Source: Acidobacteriota bacterium
Lineage (GTDB): Bacteria > Acidobacteriota > Vicinamibacteria > Vicinamibacterales > UBA2999
Assembly (NCBI GenBank): GCA_030697165.1
Contig: JAUYQQ010000019.1
Span: 62,001-126,000 of the forward strand
Reading direction: 5' to 3'
DNA: 64,000 nucleotides
Made by a program: the position numbers and the translations under genes. Of the stretch, positions 28,673-54,043 are shown piece by piece (positions within the stretch are counted from its first letter, which is position 1; each line of letters starts with the position of its first letter). The notes under the pieces were generated by a model, which worked only from the letters and a program-made list of their open reading frames with translations, searched no databases and had not been told where the DNA came from.

Positions 28673-28685
28673 GAGACACCTATTC

Positions 28686-28792
28686 TAAGGTGCCTAGGGG
28701 TGCATAAGGTGCCTAAGGTGCCTAAGGTGCCTAGGGTGCCTAAGGTGCCTAAGGTGCCTAGGGTGCCTAAGGTGCCTAAGGTGCCTCGGGTG
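28686..28792. repeat. AAGGTGCCT 9-bp minisatellite (about 11-12 copies)
   Basis: Tandem copies of AAGGTGCCT, with CTAGGGTGC variants, fill the gap between the propeller gene and the PH-domain gene and extend into the 3' end of the latter. It is the longest tract of the GGTGCC family in the window. Confidence 0.95.
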
Positions 28793-31208: not shown

Positions 31209-34200
31209 TCAGTGAAAATCGTGCGAATCGATCGCCGCGCTGTCGGGCAGGCCGGCCAGCCTCGACACACGCTCGGCCTTGATCGAGGTGACGCCGTCCT
31301 GGTTCTGCAGCACGCCCTCGACCATGAGAAACGACGCCTCGACGATGGTCAGGCGATCGGTGGCGTAGAGATCGGGCCGGACGATGATGTTGGCGATGCC
31401 GGTTTCGTCTTCGAGCGTGAGGAAGACAAAGCCCTTGGCGGTGCCCGGCCGCTGGCGCGTAATCACCATGCCGGCCGTCCGCACGCGGCGGCCGGCCCGC
31501 GCCTTCGGCAGCTCGATGGCCGGCAGCACGCCGCGCATCGACAGCTCGTGGCGGCGGAAGGTCAGCGGATGCGGGCCAACGGTGAGTCCGGTGCCGGAGT
31601 AGTCGGCGATCAGGCGCTCGGAGACACTCATGTCTGCCAGAGGACTTGGCCCGCCTTCGCGGCCGGAGGCCGCTTCGGCGAGGTCTCGCCGTAGCTGGTC
31701 TGATTCTTCACGAGCGAAGGCGGAGGCTTGGGCGGCTTCCTCGAACAACTCACCTGCAGGACGCACCGCTCGTTCGACTTGCCACAGCGCCGAGCGGCGG
31801 TCGTGGCCGAGCGAGTTGAGCGCGCCGATCTCGGCCAGCACCACCATCTCGTCGCGACGGATCCCGGTGCGGCGCACCAGTTCGTCCACGCTGCGGTAGC
31901 GCCCGCTACGCGCTGGCGCAACGCACCACTGATGGGAGCACACATTGCAGAACCGTCCGACCCCCGGCCCGACTCCCGACTCCCGACTCCCGACTCCCGG
32001 CACAGTTTCAAGCATTGTCGGGTCATCGCACCCGCATTTCGGACAGCGCGTCAGGACGCCGGGTGTATTTTTCTCGGTCGACGAAATGAAAAATACACCC
32101 GGCGTCTTTGTCGCAGCAGCGATGGCCTGCCCCGCTTCCGCACGCAAACCGCGAACGTAGCGCAGGCCGAGTCGGATCGAACCGTCCGCTTCCACCGTGC
32201 AATCCCAGTCCGACACCTGCACATCGATGGGATTGAAGCGCACGCCGCGTCGCTGCGCGTCCTTCACCAGCGTGGCGGGATGGTAGAAGCCCATCGGCTG
32301 GTTGTTGAGCAGGGCCGTGTAGAACGCCGCCGGGTAGTGCGCCTTGAAGTAGGCGCTGGCATACGCCAGCAGTGCGAAGCTGGCCGCGTGCGACTCGGGA
32401 AAGCCATACAGGGCAAACGACGTGATGGCGAGCACAATGCGATTGGCGGTCTCGCCGGTGATGCCGTTCTTCGCCATGCCGTCGCGCAACAGCCCCTCGA
32501 GCTGCCGCATGCGCTTTTCGGAGCGCTTGAAGCCCATGGCGCGCCGCAGGTCTTCGGCCTGCCCGCCGGTGAAGTTGGCCACCACCATCGCCATGCGCAA
32601 CAGCTGCTCCTGGAACAACGGCACGCCCAGCGTGCGCCTGAGGATGGGTTCGAGCAGCGGATGATCGTAGACCACGGCTTCGCGTCCGGCGCGGCGATTC
32701 AGGTACGGATGCACCATCTGCCCGACGATCGGGCCGGGGCGGATGATGGCGACTTCGACGACCAGGTCGTAGAACTTCTCGGGCTTGAGCCGTGGCAGCG
32801 TCGCCATCTGCGCGCGCGACTCGACCTGGAACACGCCAATGGTGTCGGCCGCCCGCAGCATCTGGTAGACCTCGGGGTCGTCCGCGGGAATGGTGGCGAG
32901 GCTGATCTCCGACTCCCGACTCCCGACTCCCGACTCCCGGTCATTAATCAGGTGAATGGTGTCTTGAAGCACCGCCATCATCCCGAGCCCCAACAAGTCC
33001 ACCTTGATGATGCCCATGTCGGCGCAGTCTTCCTTGTCCCACTGCACCACCACGCGGCCGGGCATGCTGGCGTTCTCGAGCGGCACCACCGATGACAGGT
33101 CGCCCTGGCACACCACCATGCCGCCGGAATGCTGGCCCAGGTGACGCGGCAGGTCCTGCAGTTGCCGCCACAGCGTCGCAAAGTGGCGCACGCGCGGTTC
33201 GTCGGCCGCCATGCCGACCTCGGCGAGCTTCTTCGACAAGGTGTCGGCGGGATCGATGAATTCGAACTGGTGCATCACCTTGGCCAGCCGATCGACCTGC
33301 CCCTCGTCCAGGTCGAGCGCCTTGCCCACTTCGCGCGCGGCGCTCTTGCCGCGATAGGTGATGACGTTGGCGGTCATGGCGGCGCCGTGTTGCCCGTACT
33401 TCTGGTAGACGTGCTGGATCACGCGCTCGCGCCGATCGCCGCTCGGCAGGTCGAGATCGATGTCGGGCCACTCGCCGCGCTCTTCCGACAGGAAGCGCTC
33501 GAACAGCAACTCCATCGCCACCGGATCCACGGCGGTGATGCCGAGGCTGTAACAGACGGCGCTATTGGCGGCCGAGCCGCGGCCCTGCACCAGGATGTCC
33601 TGCTGGCGGCAGAAGTTCACGATGTCCCACACGATCAGGAAGTAGCCGGCCAGCTGCAGCTTCTCGATCAGATCCAGTTCGCGGGCCACTTGCGCGCGGG
33701 CCTTGTCGTAATACGGGCGGTAGCGATCGCGTGCACCGACTTCGGCGATCTTGCGGAGAAACGAGCTCTCGGTCTCGCCGTCGGGCACCGGGTAGCGCGG
33801 GAACCGGTAGCCGAGATCAGTCATCGTGAACTGCAGGCGCTCGGCGAGGTCGCGCGTCGCGTGGATGGCGCCGGGCCGATCCGCGAACAGCCGCGCCATC
33901 TGCGCCGGCGGTTTCAAGTAGCGCTCGGCATTCGCCGCCAGGCGGCGGCCGGCCCGGTGCAGCGGCACGTGCTCGCGAATGGAGGTCAGCACGTCGAACA
34001 ACGGCCGCTCTTCGGGCGTGGCGAAGCCGACGCCGCCGGTGGCCACGAGCGGCACGCGAAACGCCTCGGCCAGGCACACCAGCGCGTCGTTGTCGTCTTC
34101 TTGATCGCGGTGCAAGTGCCGCTGCAACTCGACGTACGTGTTGGCGCGGCCAAACGTGCCGACAATGCGATCGAGCAGGCCGCCCACCCCGTACCGCTCG

Positions 34201-34670
34201 GCCCGCAGCAAGGCGCGGCCCGGCATGGCAATGAGCCCGGTCGTGAAGCCGTCGAGTTCGTCGATGGCGAGCGCGCCCTCGCCCTTCGGCGCCCGCAGCT
34301 TCATGCGCGACAGCAGGCGGCAGAGGTTCTTCCATCCTTCCTGTGACGCCACCAGGACAGGAAGATGGAATCGGGAGTCGGGAGTCGGGAGTCGGGAGTC
34401 GGAAACGCTCTTGCCGGGTGACTTTTTCGACTCCCGCTTCCCGACTCCCGACTCCCGGCTGGTTTCGACGGTCAGCTCCGCTCCAATTAACGGGCGGAGA
34501 CCGGCCGCTAACGCTGCCTTATGGAAGCGCGGCGCTCCCGAGACACCGTCGCGATCGAGCAGCGCCACCGCCGGGTAGCCAAGCGTGGCGGCGCGCTCGA
34601 TCAGGGTTTCCGGCGAGGACGCTGCGCGTAAGAAACTAAAGGCCGAGGAAGTATGGAGCTCGATATACAC
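31209..34670 (-). CDS. dnaE2: Error-prone DNA polymerase DnaE2 (ImuC) with repeat-encoded insertions
   Basis: A 1153-residue C-family polymerase. It has a PHP domain (MYIELHTSSAFSFLRAAS), the polymerase core with PDIDLDLPSGDRRERVI and IIKVDLLGLGMMAVLQD, and a C-terminal OB domain (GFVFLTLEDETGIANIIV). It is the catalytic subunit of SOS mutagenesis with ImuA and ImuB. The length exceeds the usual 1050-1100 because repeat DNA is read through in frame: residues 71-102, about 577-587 and about 846-910. The last block combines a TPGV-coding hairpin, two CxxC pairs (CPKCG, CNVC) and a heptamer tract. Another insert (SGREGGP) is near 1000. All leave the frame open. Confidence 0.93.
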   Translation of the reverse strand: MYIELHTSSAFSFLRAASSPETLIERAATLGYPAVALLDRDGVSGAPRFHKAALAAGLRPLIGAELTVETSRESGVGKRESKKSPGKSVSDSRLPTPDSRFHLPVLVASQEGWKNLCRLLSRMKLRAPKGEGALAIDELDGFTTGLIAMPGRALLRAERYGVGGLLDRIVGTFGRANTYVELQRHLHRDQEDDNDALVCLAEAFRVPLVATGGVGFATPEERPLFDVLTSIREHVPLHRAGRRLAANAERYLKPPAQMARLFADRPGAIHATRDLAERLQFTMTDLGYRFPRYPVPDGETESSFLRKIAEVGARDRYRPYYDKARAQVARELDLIEKLQLAGYFLIVWDIVNFCRQQDILVQGRGSAANSAVCYSLGITAVDPVAMELLFERFLSEERGEWPDIDLDLPSGDRRERVIQHVYQKYGQHGAAMTANVITYRGKSAAREVGKALDLDEGQVDRLAKVMHQFEFIDPADTLSKKLAEVGMAADEPRVRHFATLWRQLQDLPRHLGQHSGGMVVCQGDLSSVVPLENASMPGRVVVQWDKEDCADMGIIKVDLLGLGMMAVLQDTIHLINDRESGVGSRESEISLATIPADDPEVYQMLRAADTIGVFQVESRAQMATLPRLKPEKFYDLVVEVAIIRPGPIVGQMVHPYLNRRAGREAVVYDHPLLEPILRRTLGVPLFQEQLLRMAMVVANFTGGQAEDLRRAMGFKRSEKRMRQLEGLLRDGMAKNGITGETANRIVLAITSFALYGFPESHAASFALLAYASAYFKAHYPAAFYTALLNNQPMGFYHPATLVKDAQRRGVRFNPIDVQVSDWDCTVEADGSIRLGLRYVRGLRAEAGQAIAAATKTPGVFFISSTEKNTPGVLTRCPKCGCDDPTMLETVPGVGSRESGVGPGVGRFCNVCSHQWCVAPARSGRYRSVDELVRRTGIRRDEMVVLAEIGALNSLGHDRRSALWQVERAVRPAGELFEEAAQASAFAREESDQLRRDLAEAASGREGGPSPLADMSVSERLIADYSGTGLTVGPHPLTFRRHELSMRGVLPAIELPKARAGRRVRTAGMVITRQRPGTAKGFVFLTLEDETGIANIIVRPDLYATDRLTIVEASFLMVEGVLQNQDGVTSIKAERVSRLAGLPDSAAIDSHDFH
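31650..31723. repeat. CCGCCTTCGC-ended hairpin element inside dnaE2
   Basis: Ends CCGCCTTCGC and GCGAAGGCGG face each other, with an inner GGCGAGGTCTCGCC palindrome. The same layout of about 75 bp is in imuB at 35055-35131, and related ends occur at 22626 and 50498. Confidence 0.75.
31971..32000. repeat. GGGAGTC heptamer tract in dnaE2
   Basis: About four tandem units, translated in frame as GVGSRESGVG near residue 890-900. Confidence 0.9.
32055..32106. repeat. 18-bp-arm hairpin in dnaE2 coding TPGV
   Basis: The arms GACGCCGGGTGTATTTTT (32055-32072) and its exact complement (32089-32106) flank a 16-base loop. Because of the palindrome both arms code for TPGV in the dnaE2 frame. Confidence 0.92.
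32911..32940. repeat. GGGAGTC heptamer tract in dnaE2
   Basis: About four tandem units within the polymerase domain, read as RESGVGSRES near residue 577-587, directly after the DLLGLGMMAVLQDTIHLI segment. Confidence 0.9.
34371..34459. repeat. Inverted pair of GGGAGTC heptamer tracts in the dnaE2 PHP domain
   Basis: Tract 34371-34403 reads GGGAGTC on the plus strand and tract 34429-34459 reads CTCCCGA, with about 25 bp between them, so together they can fold back. They are translated as residues 71-102, between LIGAELTVET and FHLPVLVAS of the PHP domain. Confidence 0.9.
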
Positions 34671-34690
34671 AGATCAAAAGCACGAAAAAA

Positions 34691-34755
34691 CAGGAGATCA
34701 GGAGATTAGGAGCTCAGTCTTTTAAAGAAAATCCTCCTGACCTTTTGATCTCCTG
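34691..34755. repeat. CAGGAGATCAGGAG inverted repeat between imuB and dnaE2
   Basis: CAGGAGATCAGGAGATTAGG (34691-34710) and the opposite-sense TCCTCCTGACC...GATCTCCTG (34731-34755) are separated by an A/T-rich centre with TTTTAAAG. The unit also occurs at 5249-5275. It fills the 86 bp imuB-dnaE2 gap and may attenuate transcription. Confidence 0.7.
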
Positions 34756-34756
34756 C

Positions 34757-36220
34757 TTAATCGATCACTCCCTCTAAGAACCACTGGCCGACACCGCGTT
34801 CGACGACTAGCCGATAGATGGTGCCGTCGGCCAGCGCCACGTCCCACTCGTCGCGATCCCAGGCCTGCCCTTCCTGCCACCACTCGCCCGAGGTGCGCCA
34901 CGGTCCGGCAGACTGGACGATGGCGCCGCTCGAGAAACCCTGGCGATCGGTGGCCACGCGAATGGGGCGGCCTTCCTGCACGGTGACGCGCGTGGGAATG
35001 GGAAACCGGAACCGTCGCAGCGCGCTCGGGACTTCTCCACCAGGTCTCGCCGCCCCGCCTTCGCTCGCCCGGTCTTTAGGCGCGAGCTTCGGCGAGGTCT
35101 CGCCGTAGCGTCCTTCGGCCGCGAAGGCGGACATTTCGAACGCGCCCGGCTTCCAGGTATCCACCAGCCGCGGCGAGCCGACATGCGTGTCGCCCATGAG
35201 CGCGCCCAGCCGCGCGACCAGCGTGGACACCTGCTCGGGCGCCGGCTGCGCGCGTTCGAGCAACGTCCACTGCAGCACGCGGCCCGGGGTCGGCTCAATG
35301 CACACACGCACCGTGTCGATGGGGGCATCGGGCGGGTGCGTTTCGAGATCGAGCAGCACCAACGTGCGCAGCGTCTTGGCATCGCGCATGGGCGACGGCA
35401 GTGGCAGCGTGCGCGCGTGCACCCGCTTGGTGGTGAGGCGCAGCGAGGTGTAGATCACGGCGGCGCCCCGATCGGCCTGCTCCAGCCGTTCCGACAACGG
35501 CTCGAACAAGCGCGCCAGCACGAACGACAACGGCTCGAGGCCTTCGATTGGCCATTCCAGTTCGAGCGCGGCTTCGAACGGCACCTCGTCCACCCACGGC
35601 ACCAGCGGCCGCGCATCCACCCCGCGCGCCCGCGCCTGCCACTGCAGGCCGCGATCGCCCAGGCGTTCGAACACCTCGGGGCCCGCGAGCGCAGCAAAGG
35701 CGCCCAGCGTGCGAATGCCCCACTTGGTGAGGATCTCGAGGTGGCGGTTTTCCTGCGCGCGCGGCTTCGGACGGCTCGCTTGATGCGTCTGACGCGGATG
35801 GTGCCAACCGGAAGAACCAAGTGCCTCAGGTGCCAAGGGTGCCAGGGGTGCCAAAGGTGCCGGGAGGGTGCTGAGTTTCTCGTAGCGATCGAGCACGCTG
35901 ATGCTGAGCGGCGCGAGCGCCTTCTCTTCCCGGCCAGGCTCGACCACGGTCAGTCCGGGCCGGCCGAGTGCGAGCAAGGCAGCGGCCGTTTGCGTGGAGG
36001 CAATTGCCACTCGGGGCGCGGTCCCACCACCGGTGCCATGTTTCGCCAGCGACTCGCTCAGGTGCGCGCCCAGTTCCTGCGGACTACCGAACAGGCGCGA
36101 CAGGCCGCCGGCATCGAGCAACACGAGCGGGCCGACCTGCTCGAAGCGGGGCGTGAAGGCGCGCGCCACCTCGATGATGGCCGCCGCCCGAATCGACGGA
36201 GCAACGAGTGCGGCAAACAC
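34757..36220 (-). CDS. imuB: ImuB, Y-family-like mutagenesis factor
   Basis: A 487-residue protein from a GTG at 36220, just after the imuA stop. It follows the Y-family polymerase fold (LVLLDAGGLSRLFGSPQELGAHL is the palm, then a thumb/helix-hairpin-helix region with LTKWGIRTLGAFAALAG and a little finger with RLFEPLSERLEQADRGA). Catalytic acidic residues of true polymerases are largely missing, as known for ImuB, which serves as a hub linking DnaE2 to the clamp. Two repeat-coded inserts are visible: APLAPLAPLAP at 121-131 (9-bp unit) and a Gly/Ala/Glu stretch around 370-395 (CCGCCTTCGC hairpin). The N-terminus is shorter than usual; an alternative start upstream overlaps imuA. Confidence 0.88.
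   Translation of the reverse strand: MFAALVAPSIRAAAIIEVARAFTPRFEQVGPLVLLDAGGLSRLFGSPQELGAHLSESLAKHGTGGGTAPRVAIASTQTAAALLALGRPGLTVVEPGREEKALAPLSISVLDRYEKLSTLPAPLAPLAPLAPEALGSSGWHHPRQTHQASRPKPRAQENRHLEILTKWGIRTLGAFAALAGPEVFERLGDRGLQWQARARGVDARPLVPWVDEVPFEAALELEWPIEGLEPLSFVLARLFEPLSERLEQADRGAAVIYTSLRLTTKRVHARTLPLPSPMRDAKTLRTLVLLDLETHPPDAPIDTVRVCIEPTPGRVLQWTLLERAQPAPEQVSTLVARLGALMGDTHVGSPRLVDTWKPGAFEMSAFAAEGRYGETSPKLAPKDRASEGGAARPGGEVPSALRRFRFPIPTRVTVQEGRPIRVATDRQGFSSGAIVQSAGPWRTSGEWWQEGQAWDRDEWDVALADGTIYRLVVERGVGQWFLEGVID
35055..35131. repeat. CCGCCTTCGC-ended hairpin element inside imuB
   Basis: Same architecture as 31650-31723 in dnaE2: outer arms CCGCCTTCGC/GCGAAGGCGG and an inner CTTCGGCGAGGTCTCGCCG stretch. 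It is read through in the imuB frame. Confidence 0.78.
35821..35862. repeat. GGTGCC 9-bp tract inside imuB
   Basis: Four to five tandem 9-bp units coding APLAPLAPLAP. Same family as 21721, 28686 and 41335. Confidence 0.9.
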
Positions 36221-36222
36221 GG

Positions 36223-37041
36223 TTACACCGCGTGGACGAAGCGAGTATGAACGGCGACTTGTTGGGCGTGCGACCACCGGGCCGCCGAAACGGCAGCGCC
36301 AGAGCGAACACCACCCAGGCGGCGCGTCCGGTCATGCTCCCCTTTCCAGACGGGAGTGGTATTTCCGACTCCCGACTCCCGACTCCCGACTCCCGTCTGG
36401 ATCGTACGGCCGCCGGAGCTGCGCGCCACGGACTGGGCCGCGAGAATGACGACCGCCGTGTCGCTGCCTTCGATGGCGCGTTCGATGCGGAACCAGGTGG
36501 AGGCCGGCAGCCGGCGCAGCGCCTGCGCCGGCACGTCGATCAGGTCGATTGCGACCAGCGTGCACACGCCCGACTGAACGACCAGGTTCAGCGACTTGAT
36601 CGCGCGATCGATCACCCGCTCCACGAACGTGCCGGGGCCGTTGACCGCGCGCACGCCCGGCAGCCAGGCCGGGTCGATGGCCACCGCGGTTTTCGACACC
36701 GCCTGGCCGCGCACCCACAGCAGGCGCGGCAGCACGAGGCCGCAGGCCGCGGCCGTCGGCGGGTCGAAGCGATCGAAGGTGTCGATCAGCGCCACGGTTT
36801 CGCCACGGCGGGTCGCCGCCGCCAGCGCGGCCCACACCAGTCCCGTACGACCAGACGAAGCCGGTCCCACCACTTCAGACACCTGCCCGCGCGGCAGGCC
36901 ACCGGCGAGTCCGCGGTCCAGGGCCTCGACGTCCAGCGGCGACACCGCGTCTTCGCCCAGGCGTTCGGGAATGGCAGAGGTGAGGGTTCGGTCGAGTTTT
37001 CGCTCTCGGAGCAGGGCTTCTACGGTGGCGCGGACGGCCAT
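36223..37041 (-). CDS. imuA: ImuA, RecA-like factor of the SOS mutagenesis cassette
   Basis: A 272-residue RecA-fold protein of the ImuA/SulA-like group. The Walker-A-like loop is GPASSGRTG (about 59-67); then VALIDTFDRFDP and a Walker-B-like LVAIDLID segment follow. AGGTGAG precedes the ATG. It is the first gene of imuA-imuB-dnaE2, all on the minus strand with close spacing. A GGGAGTC heptamer tract (36366-36397) is translated as TGVGSRESGVG near 216-226, in the C-terminal part where ImuA proteins are variable and ImuB is bound. A candidate LexA-type operator lies 13 bp upstream. Confidence 0.85.
   Translation of the reverse strand: MAVRATVEALLRERKLDRTLTSAIPERLGEDAVSPLDVEALDRGLAGGLPRGQVSEVVGPASSGRTGLVWAALAAATRRGETVALIDTFDRFDPPTAAACGLVLPRLLWVRGQAVSKTAVAIDPAWLPGVRAVNGPGTFVERVIDRAIKSLNLVVQSGVCTLVAIDLIDVPAQALRRLPASTWFRIERAIEGSDTAVVILAAQSVARSSGGRTIQTGVGSRESGVGNTTPVWKGEHDRTRRLGGVRSGAAVSAARWSHAQQVAVHTRFVHAV
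36366..36397. repeat. GGGAGTC heptamer tract inside imuA
   Basis: More than four tandem units in the 3' third of imuA, read in frame. Confidence 0.9.
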
Positions 37042-37053
37042 ATCTCACCTCTA

Positions 37054-37103
37054 TTCGCTTAACTTTCGCCATTGTAACGGCCCGTAGGCGAAAGTCAAGC
37101 GAA
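37054..37103. promoter_or_regulatory. Candidate SOS (LexA-type) operator pair upstream of imuA
   Basis: Two 11-bp-period direct repeats stand in inverted orientation: TTCGC-N6-TTCGC at 37054-37069 and GCGAA-N6-GCGAA at 37088-37103 (the latter within GGCGAAAGTCAAGCGAAAG). The 11-bp period equals that of GTTC-N7-GTTC LexA boxes of alphaproteobacteria. The pair lies between imuA and the divergent small gene, so each direction has one box near its start. That LexA binds here is inference. Confidence 0.6.
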
Positions 37104-44515: not shown

Positions 44516-44580
44516 GGCCGGGAGGGTAATTCTTGTCGGGAGGGCAACTCTTGTCGGGAGGTTGCTTCTGGTCGGGAAGT
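44516..44580. repeat. 18-bp GTCGGGAGG-core minisatellite, array 1
   Basis: Four units with an 18-bp period after the MFS stop, such as GTCGGGAGGGCAACTCTT and GTCGGGAGGTTGCTTCTG. The first nine bases are constant, the last nine vary. Confidence 0.85.
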
Positions 44581-44600
44581 GCTAGAGTGCGGAACGACAA

Positions 44601-44861
44601 ATGGACTTCTGGCAGAACCACGGCTGGCTGTTTCTCCTCGGCATCACGTTCTTCCCCCGGATAACGATGTTGTTTGCCGTATCGGTGCCTTTTGGCTTGC
44701 TGGCGTGGGCCGGGTGGCTGTTCTTCCCCCACCTGACGGTCGCGATCCTGGCGACCACCTACTACTGGGACACCAACCCGGTGCTGTGCGTGATCGCGTG
44801 GGTGGTTGCTCTCGGCGGCACGGCCGGTGAAGGCAAGGTCGCGTCCGGGCGAATCAAATAG
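44601..44861 (+). CDS. Small two-helix membrane protein (86 aa)
   Basis: An 86-residue protein from the ATG at 44601, 20 bp after the 18-bp array. It has two long hydrophobic segments (about 9-45 and 58-75), many aromatic residues (WLFFPHLTVAILATTYYWDTN) and a basic tail. The hydrophobic-polar pattern and codon use look genuine. The family is not recognised and no function is inferred. Confidence 0.55.
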   Translation: MDFWQNHGWLFLLGITFFPRITMLFAVSVPFGLLAWAGWLFFPHLTVAILATTYYWDTNPVLCVIAWVVALGGTAGEGKVASGRIK

Positions 44862-44904
44862 GTTTTGTCGGCCCCGCCCGTGCGGGCGTTAAGCGGGGCG
44901 TGCC

Positions 44905-45095
44905 GGGAAGGAGCCACTTGACGGGACGGCACTCCTTGACGGGAGGTTGACTCTTGTCGGGAGTCGCAACGTTCCAGAAACGGGTTCGAATCCGCCTTCG
45001 GGGACGCCAGTCCGAAGCGACGCACCATCCCGACAGGAACCACCCTCCCGTCGAGCGGTGCCCTCCCGACGAGAAGTGCCCCCCGACAAGAATCA
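44905..45095. repeat. 18-bp GTCGGGAGG-core minisatellite, inverted pair of arrays 2 and 3
   Basis: Array 2 (44913-44972) has three units in plus sense (GACGGGAGGTTGACTCTT and others). Array 3 (45028-45095) has four units in minus sense (CCCTCCCGACGAGAAGTG and others), about 55 bp apart. Together they could form a long imperfect stem. The space between genes 44862-45099 contains nothing else recognised. Confidence 0.85.
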
Positions 45096-45099
45096 GGAA

Positions 45100-45747
45100 C
45101 TAGCGGCCGCCGCGCTCGATGACGAGCTTGAGCGCCGCCTGTTTGATCTGCGGCCTGATGTTCCAGCTCTTCGCCATCGCCTGCAGGTGCCTGATGTTGA
45201 GTCCGCTGATCAGCTTGAGGGCCGTGGGCGTCGGCGTCTTCGGGTTCTGGACGAGATTGAGCTTGACCTGCTCGTTCTGCATCCACTGCGCTGAGGTGGC
45301 GATCAGGTCGGCCACTTGTGCGTTCAAGGTGCCGAGCCTGGTGATCTCGAGGATCTCGTCCAGCGTGATCCGCGGGTTCTTGCACACATAGAACAAGACC
45401 TGCGGATCGACATCCCGGATTAGCAAGACCCGCGTCGCGCGATCGGCCTTGCCGGCGAGAATCAGCTTCTGTGCCCGCGGCATGGCGCGGAGCGCCTCGA
45501 TCGGCGACAGCCGCCTGGCGGCGTCGGCGGTCTCCGGCTCGATCGAGTGACGCTCGACACAACCGGGACACACCCCGGACTCGGCATCCGTGGTGTGGCA
45601 CGCGCAATCACACGCACCGCCGTCGGTCAGTGCTGCGGCTTCTGGTCCCGACAAGGATTGCCTCCCGACAGGCGGTGCCCTCCCGACACGAATTGCCCTC
45701 CCGTCTGGCGCAAGCCAGTCACTGCTGCGGTTTCTTCTCCGCCGCAT
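45100..45747 (-). CDS. Hypothetical protein with Cys-rich segment and helical repeats
   Basis: 215 residues if started at 45747. The first 35 residues (RAIRVGRAPPVGRQSLSG) are coded by the 18-bp minisatellite, so the true start may be later; no internal ATG stands before the Cys-rich part. That part (ACDCACH..CPGC) could bind a metal. The remainder, from SPIEALRAMPRAQKLILAG, is a series of amphipathic helices with LFYVCKNPRITLDEILEI and LNLVQNPKTPTPTALKLI, resembling helical (HEAT- or leucine-rich-variant-type) repeats. Family not recognised; a regulatory or scaffold role is only a guess. Downstream of the 385-residue secreted protein on the same strand, overlapping it by 29 bp. Confidence 0.55.
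   Translation of the reverse strand: MRRRRNRSSDWLAPDGRAIRVGRAPPVGRQSLSGPEAAALTDGGACDCACHTTDAESGVCPGCVERHSIEPETADAARRLSPIEALRAMPRAQKLILAGKADRATRVLLIRDVDPQVLFYVCKNPRITLDEILEITRLGTLNAQVADLIATSAQWMQNEQVKLNLVQNPKTPTPTALKLISGLNIRHLQAMAKSWNIRPQIKQAALKLVIERGGR
45646..45717. repeat. 18-bp minisatellite, array 4 (coding)
   Basis: Four units in minus sense (CCTCCCGACAGGCGGTGC and others), translated within the N-terminus of the 45100-45747 gene as V-G-R-containing hexapeptides, since 18 bp is six codons. Confidence 0.85.
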
Positions 45748-53981: not shown

Positions 53982-54043
53982 TCAGGGATCAGGGATCAGG
54001 GATCAGGGATCAGGGATCAGGGATCAGGGATCAGGGATCAGGG
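53982..54043. repeat. ATCAGGG heptamer array (about 9 copies)
   Basis: A near-perfect tandem array of 7-bp units between two minus-strand genes, ending 4 bp before the stop of the permease gene (54047). It has the same period as the GGGAGTC family but another sequence. Confidence 0.95.

Follow-up and report, generated by a model that had tools for sequence, protein, structure and literature searches.

The imuA-imuB-dnaE2 cassette and its repeats

The window analysed here is a stretch of 64,000 nt (contig JAUYQQ010000019.1, positions 62,001–126,000) from the Acidobacteriota bacterium assembly GCA_030697165.1, and all coordinates are those of the window. The source genome amounts to 5.39 Mb in 23 contigs, and the relatives compared with it are acidobacterial MAGs; the Acidobacteriota are bacteria of soil and water. 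ORF and profile searches located imuA, imuB and dnaE2 on the minus strand (Table 1). The imuA assignment draws on a RecA-like sequence and on the position in the cassette, conserved in 29 relatives; imuB sits between imuA and dnaE2, again as in relatives. An ImuA-ImuB-DnaE2 cassette consists of a DnaE2-type polymerase adjoining imuB and imuA homologues, and that is the arrangement found here, with its order kept in relatives.

Table 1. Genes, repeat elements and candidate operator-like sites of the cassette, in window coordinates
Feature	Coordinates	Strand	Basis
imuA (RecA-like mutasome subunit)	36223–37041	-	NCBIfam ImuA NF033429, E=2e-9, under its cut-off
imuB (Y-family-like mutasome subunit)	34757–36277 (start about 36277/36220)	-	weak Pol IV profile matches
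dnaE2 (error-prone C-family DNA polymerase)	31209–34670	-	NCBIfam PRK05672, 1216 bits against a cut-off of 939
DnaE2 loop 1 insert: two convergent GGGAGTC arrays around a spacer	34365–34466	-	TRF, alignment of 41 DnaE2, DNA view
DnaE2 loop 2 insert: four GGGAGTC units, about residues 577–590	32901–32942	-	TRF, alignment, DNA view
DnaE2 loop 3a insert: 19-bp perfect hairpin (TPGV)	32025–32114	-	repeat search, alignment
DnaE2 loop 3b insert: GGGAGTC array inside the Cys-rich (zinc-ribbon-like) segment	31959–32015	-	TRF, alignment, DNA view
DnaE2 loop 4 insert: CCGCCTTCGC...GCGAAGGCGG hairpin element	31647–31754	-	repeat search, alignment, DNA view
ImuB insert: second CCGCCTTCGC hairpin element, inverted relative to the DnaE2 loop 4 copy	35055–35130	-	repeat search
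ImuB insert: GGTGCCAAG 9-mer array	35829–35861	-	TRF
ImuA insert: GGGAGTC array	36365–36395	-	TRF
CAGGAG inverted repeat between imuB and dnaE2	34683–34763	.	repeat search
Candidate facing operator-like sites GGCGAAAGTTAAGCGAA / GGCGAAAGTCAAGCGAA upstream of imuA	37054–37103	.	sequence match

TRF and the repeat search recovered every repeat tract that a first-pass annotation of this DNA had listed, and the three ORFs are uninterrupted, as it had said. TRF delimited the GGGAGTC/CGACTCC arrays at 31968–31999, 32909–32939, 34367–34402, 34428–34457 and 36365–36395. The loop 1 insert lies in the PHP domain, at about residues 69–102 of DnaE2, and the loop 3a hairpin proper (32055–32106) precedes and enters a Cys-rich motif. 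The two CCGCCTTCGC hairpins span 46 nt and are 87% alike; stretches resembling the ImuB copy occur elsewhere in genomes of the genus, some of them within other ORFs. The same annotation had sorted the elements into repeat families. This is borne out for CAGGAG, a common, dispersed and mainly intergenic family (38 of 46 overlapping matches intergenic). It is unsupported for the TPGV hairpin, whose arm had no further occurrence in an 864-kb sample of the source genome.

Beyond the cassette, the window contains further repeats. At 44519–45703 lies an 18-base family made up of CGGGAGGG and variable bases; the repeats filling loop 2 of DnaE2 in L062 and L068, both from genomes of the same genus, look similar to it. 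Longer arrays are found at 53982–54043 (TCAGGGA, 8.9 perfect copies) and at 28685–28786 (the 9-mer CTAAGGTGC, 11 copies).

Upstream of imuA, the site GGCGAAAGTNAAGCGAA occurs twice as a facing pair, and it occurs once upstream of recA with three mismatches (L333, 1501–1517). These three aside, GGCGAAAGTNAAGCGAA matched no more often than the reversed control did. Judged by these matches, DNA-damage control of the cassette is plausible, and GGCGAAAGTNAAGCGAA is a candidate damage-response box for the group.

Array density in mutasome genes and other genes

We counted as an array any tandem repeat of a seven-base unit with a TRF score of at least 44. Forty relatives supplied the cassette with its flanking DNA, 20 genomes supplied dnaE1 regions, and another 800 kb came from the source genome; gene prediction relied on a simple script based on codon usage in place of a standard caller. 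DnaE2 carried 83–84 arrays in 139.6 kb, or 0.595/kb (41 copies, one order), with at least one array in 30 of the 41 genes. ImuB carried 21 in 52.2 kb (0.40/kb) and ImuA five in 23.9 kb (0.21/kb). All other predicted genes together had four arrays in 546.6 kb (0.007/kb), so that the mutasome genes carry arrays at, very roughly, a hundredfold the rate of other genes. No array was found in 70.6 kb of DnaE1, and the controls from the same genome set gave none in 82.0 kb of PolA, one in 88.7 kb of UvrA, two in 55.7 kb of RecN and none in 29.4 kb of DinB. The excess over other coding DNA that had been proposed from the window is thus upheld across the order, and stress genes in general can be set aside as repeat carriers, uvrA, recN and dinB being clean or nearly so. 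A chance origin was also rejected: codon-shuffled versions of the 41 DnaE2 genes yielded no array, against 84 observed. Assembly artefact is unlikely, as the single-contig genome G050 (L100) has repeats at the same loops.

Within the source genome, dnaE2 tops the 700 predicted genes of the 864-kb sample with four short-unit arrays, the next highest gene having two. Arrays in this sample lie mostly outside predicted genes (22 of 34, with genes covering 91% of the DNA); the cassette is the exception and holds five of the 12 intragenic ones. A housekeeping gene, purD-like as named by its sequence, bears one array. The source genome outside its cassette has 29 arrays in the 864-kb sample, about 0.034/kb. 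For relatives with a cassette, DNA outside the cassette and its 300-bp margins has 15 arrays in 609 kb (0.025/kb), intergenic DNA included; one count put the intergenic rate at 0.36/kb, a figure probably inflated by cassette spacers and by unassigned parts of cassettes.

Arrays occupy a few loops of DnaE2

In the 41-sequence alignment, 80 of the 84 DnaE2 arrays fall within five segments of four loop regions that total 16.3 kb. Region 1 follows PLIGAELT in the PHP domain, region 2 lies after the IxLVN motif and before the conserved DDPEVY, region 3 surrounds the Cys-rich motif CPKCGCDD...FCNVCSHEW, and region 4 follows RPAGELFE. Homologues without repeats are short at these sites or lack them, which agrees with the expectation that inserts would sit in loops. 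Relative to E. coli Pol III alpha (PDB 2hnh), the loop 1 site is a gap and the loop 2 site a short divergent stretch, and we infer that the insert sites are exposed loops. Other families, an 18-mer and palindromes among them, occupy these loops as well.

In other acidobacterial classes the loop 2 and loop 3 inserts are missing, loop 1 again takes insertions, and a new insertion site appears before HRRDALW. Inserts there include longer stretches that are not heptamer repeats, so the receptivity of DnaE2 exceeds one order and one repeat family.

The Cys-rich, zinc-ribbon-like motif (CPKCGCDDPxMxE...FCNVCSHEW; window 31940–32060, about residues 871–910) is conserved in DnaE2 of the order, where it separates the helix-hairpin-helix region from the C-terminal part. 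L077, L098, L193 and L218 lack it, as do the other acidobacterial classes aligned. Three records titled Acidimicrobiia (L162, L167, L182) have a DnaE2 67–79% identical to the acidobacterial one; their titles are probably wrong.

Repeat families differ between genomes

Inserts turn over between species. DnaE2 repeat families vary by genome, and several match the dispersed pool of their host. The source genome has 163 overlapping GGGAGTC dimers (91 and 72 by strand), two single-contig relatives have 381 and 134, and 45 of 60 genomes have none. For GAAGGCA dimers the counts are 163 and 126 in two genomes of the same genus and zero in the source genome. The DnaE2 genes follow suit, with GAAGGCA-type arrays in G001 and G002 and GGGAGTC-type arrays in the source genome (G000), G032, G036 and G050. 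The match to the pool is not a rule that DnaE2 bears the most abundant family of its host: the sister species G003 has only six overlapping GGGATCA matches, three of them in DnaE2, and the source genome has many GGGATCA matches, none in its cassette. Loop 2 holds four GGGAGTC units in the source genome and four GGGATCA units in G003, at equal length and with matching flanks, which suggests that the unit was exchanged in situ. G005 and G006 have no loop 2 insert.

DnaE2 arrays most commonly have four to five copies, with a mean match of 89% (15 of 84 perfect). They occur on both strands, many of their units have no run of at least three G or C, and in some elements a spacer separates two arrays that face each other. 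A perfect stem of 12 bp or longer is present in 17 of 160 loop segments, against 0.2 expected. Among the cassettes compared, at one genome per species, no repeat had put a full-length gene out of frame. The DnaE2 of L088 has a stop in a conserved region, and that of L066 a stop in loop 4 that resembles a substitution.

Origin and maintenance of the repeats

We interpret the imuA-imuB-dnaE2 operon as a repeat sink whose sites are a small number of loops in the mutasome proteins, a reading that we favour with some caution. Short repeats are scattered through genomes of the group. Most are seven-base units repeated about four or five times, some of them in facing arrays that can form hairpins, and several palindromic families occur as well. 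Such elements would lodge or arise at loops where an insertion that keeps the frame harms little; their positions are observed, and tolerance would account for them. Seven is not a multiple of three, so a change of one unit breaks the gene and arrays in an ORF tend to keep their length; variants would be purged and array length would be locked. The unit could nonetheless be replaced by another of the same length, as one clear case suggests may happen more generally. The mutasome itself would not be needed for making repeats. Of the possible reasons for its excess over other conditional repair genes, the most probable is that selection is weak on proteins that are seldom used and stand outside the replisome. 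Simple tolerance is challenged by an array density in the loop segments above that of intergenic DNA, and by DinB and RecN, which are also repair proteins and yet are clean or nearly so. The proposal of the first-pass annotation that repeats could be tolerated since the cassette serves only under stress is borne out only in part: stress use does not account for essentially array-free uvrA, recN and dinB beside an array in the purD-like housekeeping gene.

Heptanucleotide contingency loci, such as neuO of E. coli K1, have seven-base units within an ORF, so that adding or losing a single unit puts the gene out of frame. The cassette shares such units and the same consequence of a unit change, and gain or loss of a unit might reversibly switch the mutasome operon off, an array in any one gene being enough. 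Such a switch would explain the choice of operon. In its favour, the seven-base units do not make up whole codons, each of the three genes of this one operon has arrays whereas other genes scarcely do, and the enrichment surpasses that of all remaining DNA, counting the intergenic part. Unlike at neuO, however, no length variants or OFF frames were seen; the arrays are short and mostly imperfect, and non-slipping palindromes share the same loops and a frame-neutral 9-mer sits in imuB, all of which leaves a contingency locus improbable. We also regard as unlikely that the operon actively attracts seven-base arrays or is selected to hold them, which would make mutability heritable and switchable across the phylum. 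The least probable source is the mutasome itself, whose own locus, transcribed when the mutasome is active, would be hit most. Damage-induced frameshifts are promoted by mycobacterial DnaE2 (PMC9346131), and the operator-like site shared by imuA and recA makes damage induction of the locus plausible. Repeat making by this very polymerase had been suggested from the window, but it is unsupported in view of array-bearing relatives without imuB and dnaE2: five relatives in which neither protein was found, MAGs of 86–97% completeness whose lack of a mutasome is likely rather than certain and may have followed earlier presence, have 25 arrays in 363 kb (0.069/kb), a rate only roughly comparable with the 0.025/kb outside the cassette in cassette-bearing relatives, as the two were sampled from different contigs. 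The near-clean uvrA, recN and dinB also speak against it.

Two further readings give the inserts a use, and both strike us as rather improbable. The inserts might be selected as RNA or DNA structures, hairpins or G-quadruplexes, that keep mutasome expression low; the excess of long perfect stems fits this, as do related four-unit G-rich heptamer arrays that form G-quadruplexes in vitro (PMC4692102). Against it, both strand orientations occur, most loops have no long perfect stem, and many units are without a G or C run. Alternatively, the loops might be useful disordered linkers of the mutasome, for which repeats are merely cheap lengthening material. Nearly every DnaE2 of the order has inserts at several sites, and G003 has them too even though its loop 2 family is rare in its genome; yet G005 and G006 do without the loop 2 insert, other classes manage without loops 2 and 3, and loop length varies widely.

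Eight of 60 order-level relatives (G009, G015, G016, G019, G027, G030, G033 and G047) yielded no ImuB and no DnaE2, which suggests that the mutasome was lost repeatedly or that the MAGs have gaps.

Comparison with known repeats

Xanthomonas and Nostoc carry dispersed G-rich heptamers, GGGAATC and GGGGA(C/T)T (Rehm et al. 2015, PMC4692102); those of xanthomonads are 89–93% intergenic, and their associated genes span all functional classes. The arrays described here resemble them in the much alike form of their seven-base units, the preference for about four units, the facing pairs, the dispersal on both strands, the variation of the unit by genome and, in the source genome sample, a mostly noncoding location. 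Unlike them, they have a marked intragenic hotspot in one operon, and many of their units are not G-rich. Rickettsia palindromic elements, as a review recounts them (Ogata et al. 2000, 2002, via PMC10969869), are palindromes of about 150 bp in unrelated genes. By that account the likeness lies in dispersed short elements placed in frame inside protein genes that stay intact; the differences are that most elements here are tandem arrays of about 30 bp, that they come from many families and that, in one species after another, they cluster at the same loops of a single operon. We did not find one palindromic family in many unrelated genes, as in Rickettsia.

A full-text literature search on imuB, dnaE2 and tandem repeats returned nothing relevant, and in the literature covered, which took in few subscription journals, no report came up of a single operon that collects repeats at fixed loops across species. 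Both the type of repeat and its residence in frame are of known kinds, and the operon-specific sink is the part for which we found no description. The usual view is that dispersed short repeats keep out of coding DNA; here the operon of an error-prone polymerase gathers them instead. From one species to the next the loops stay the same and the repeat sequence changes, which amounts to a natural series of insertion experiments in a polymerase. The cassette is also a clear place to watch repeats being rewritten in place, and it allows a direct test of whether mutagenesis genes are under weak selection or are selected to vary.

Two LigD ligase-domain ORFs (G002:C139:21193-21288 and G006:C203:1848-1934) hold a stretch like the ImuB hairpin element, so LigD may be a second repeat sink.
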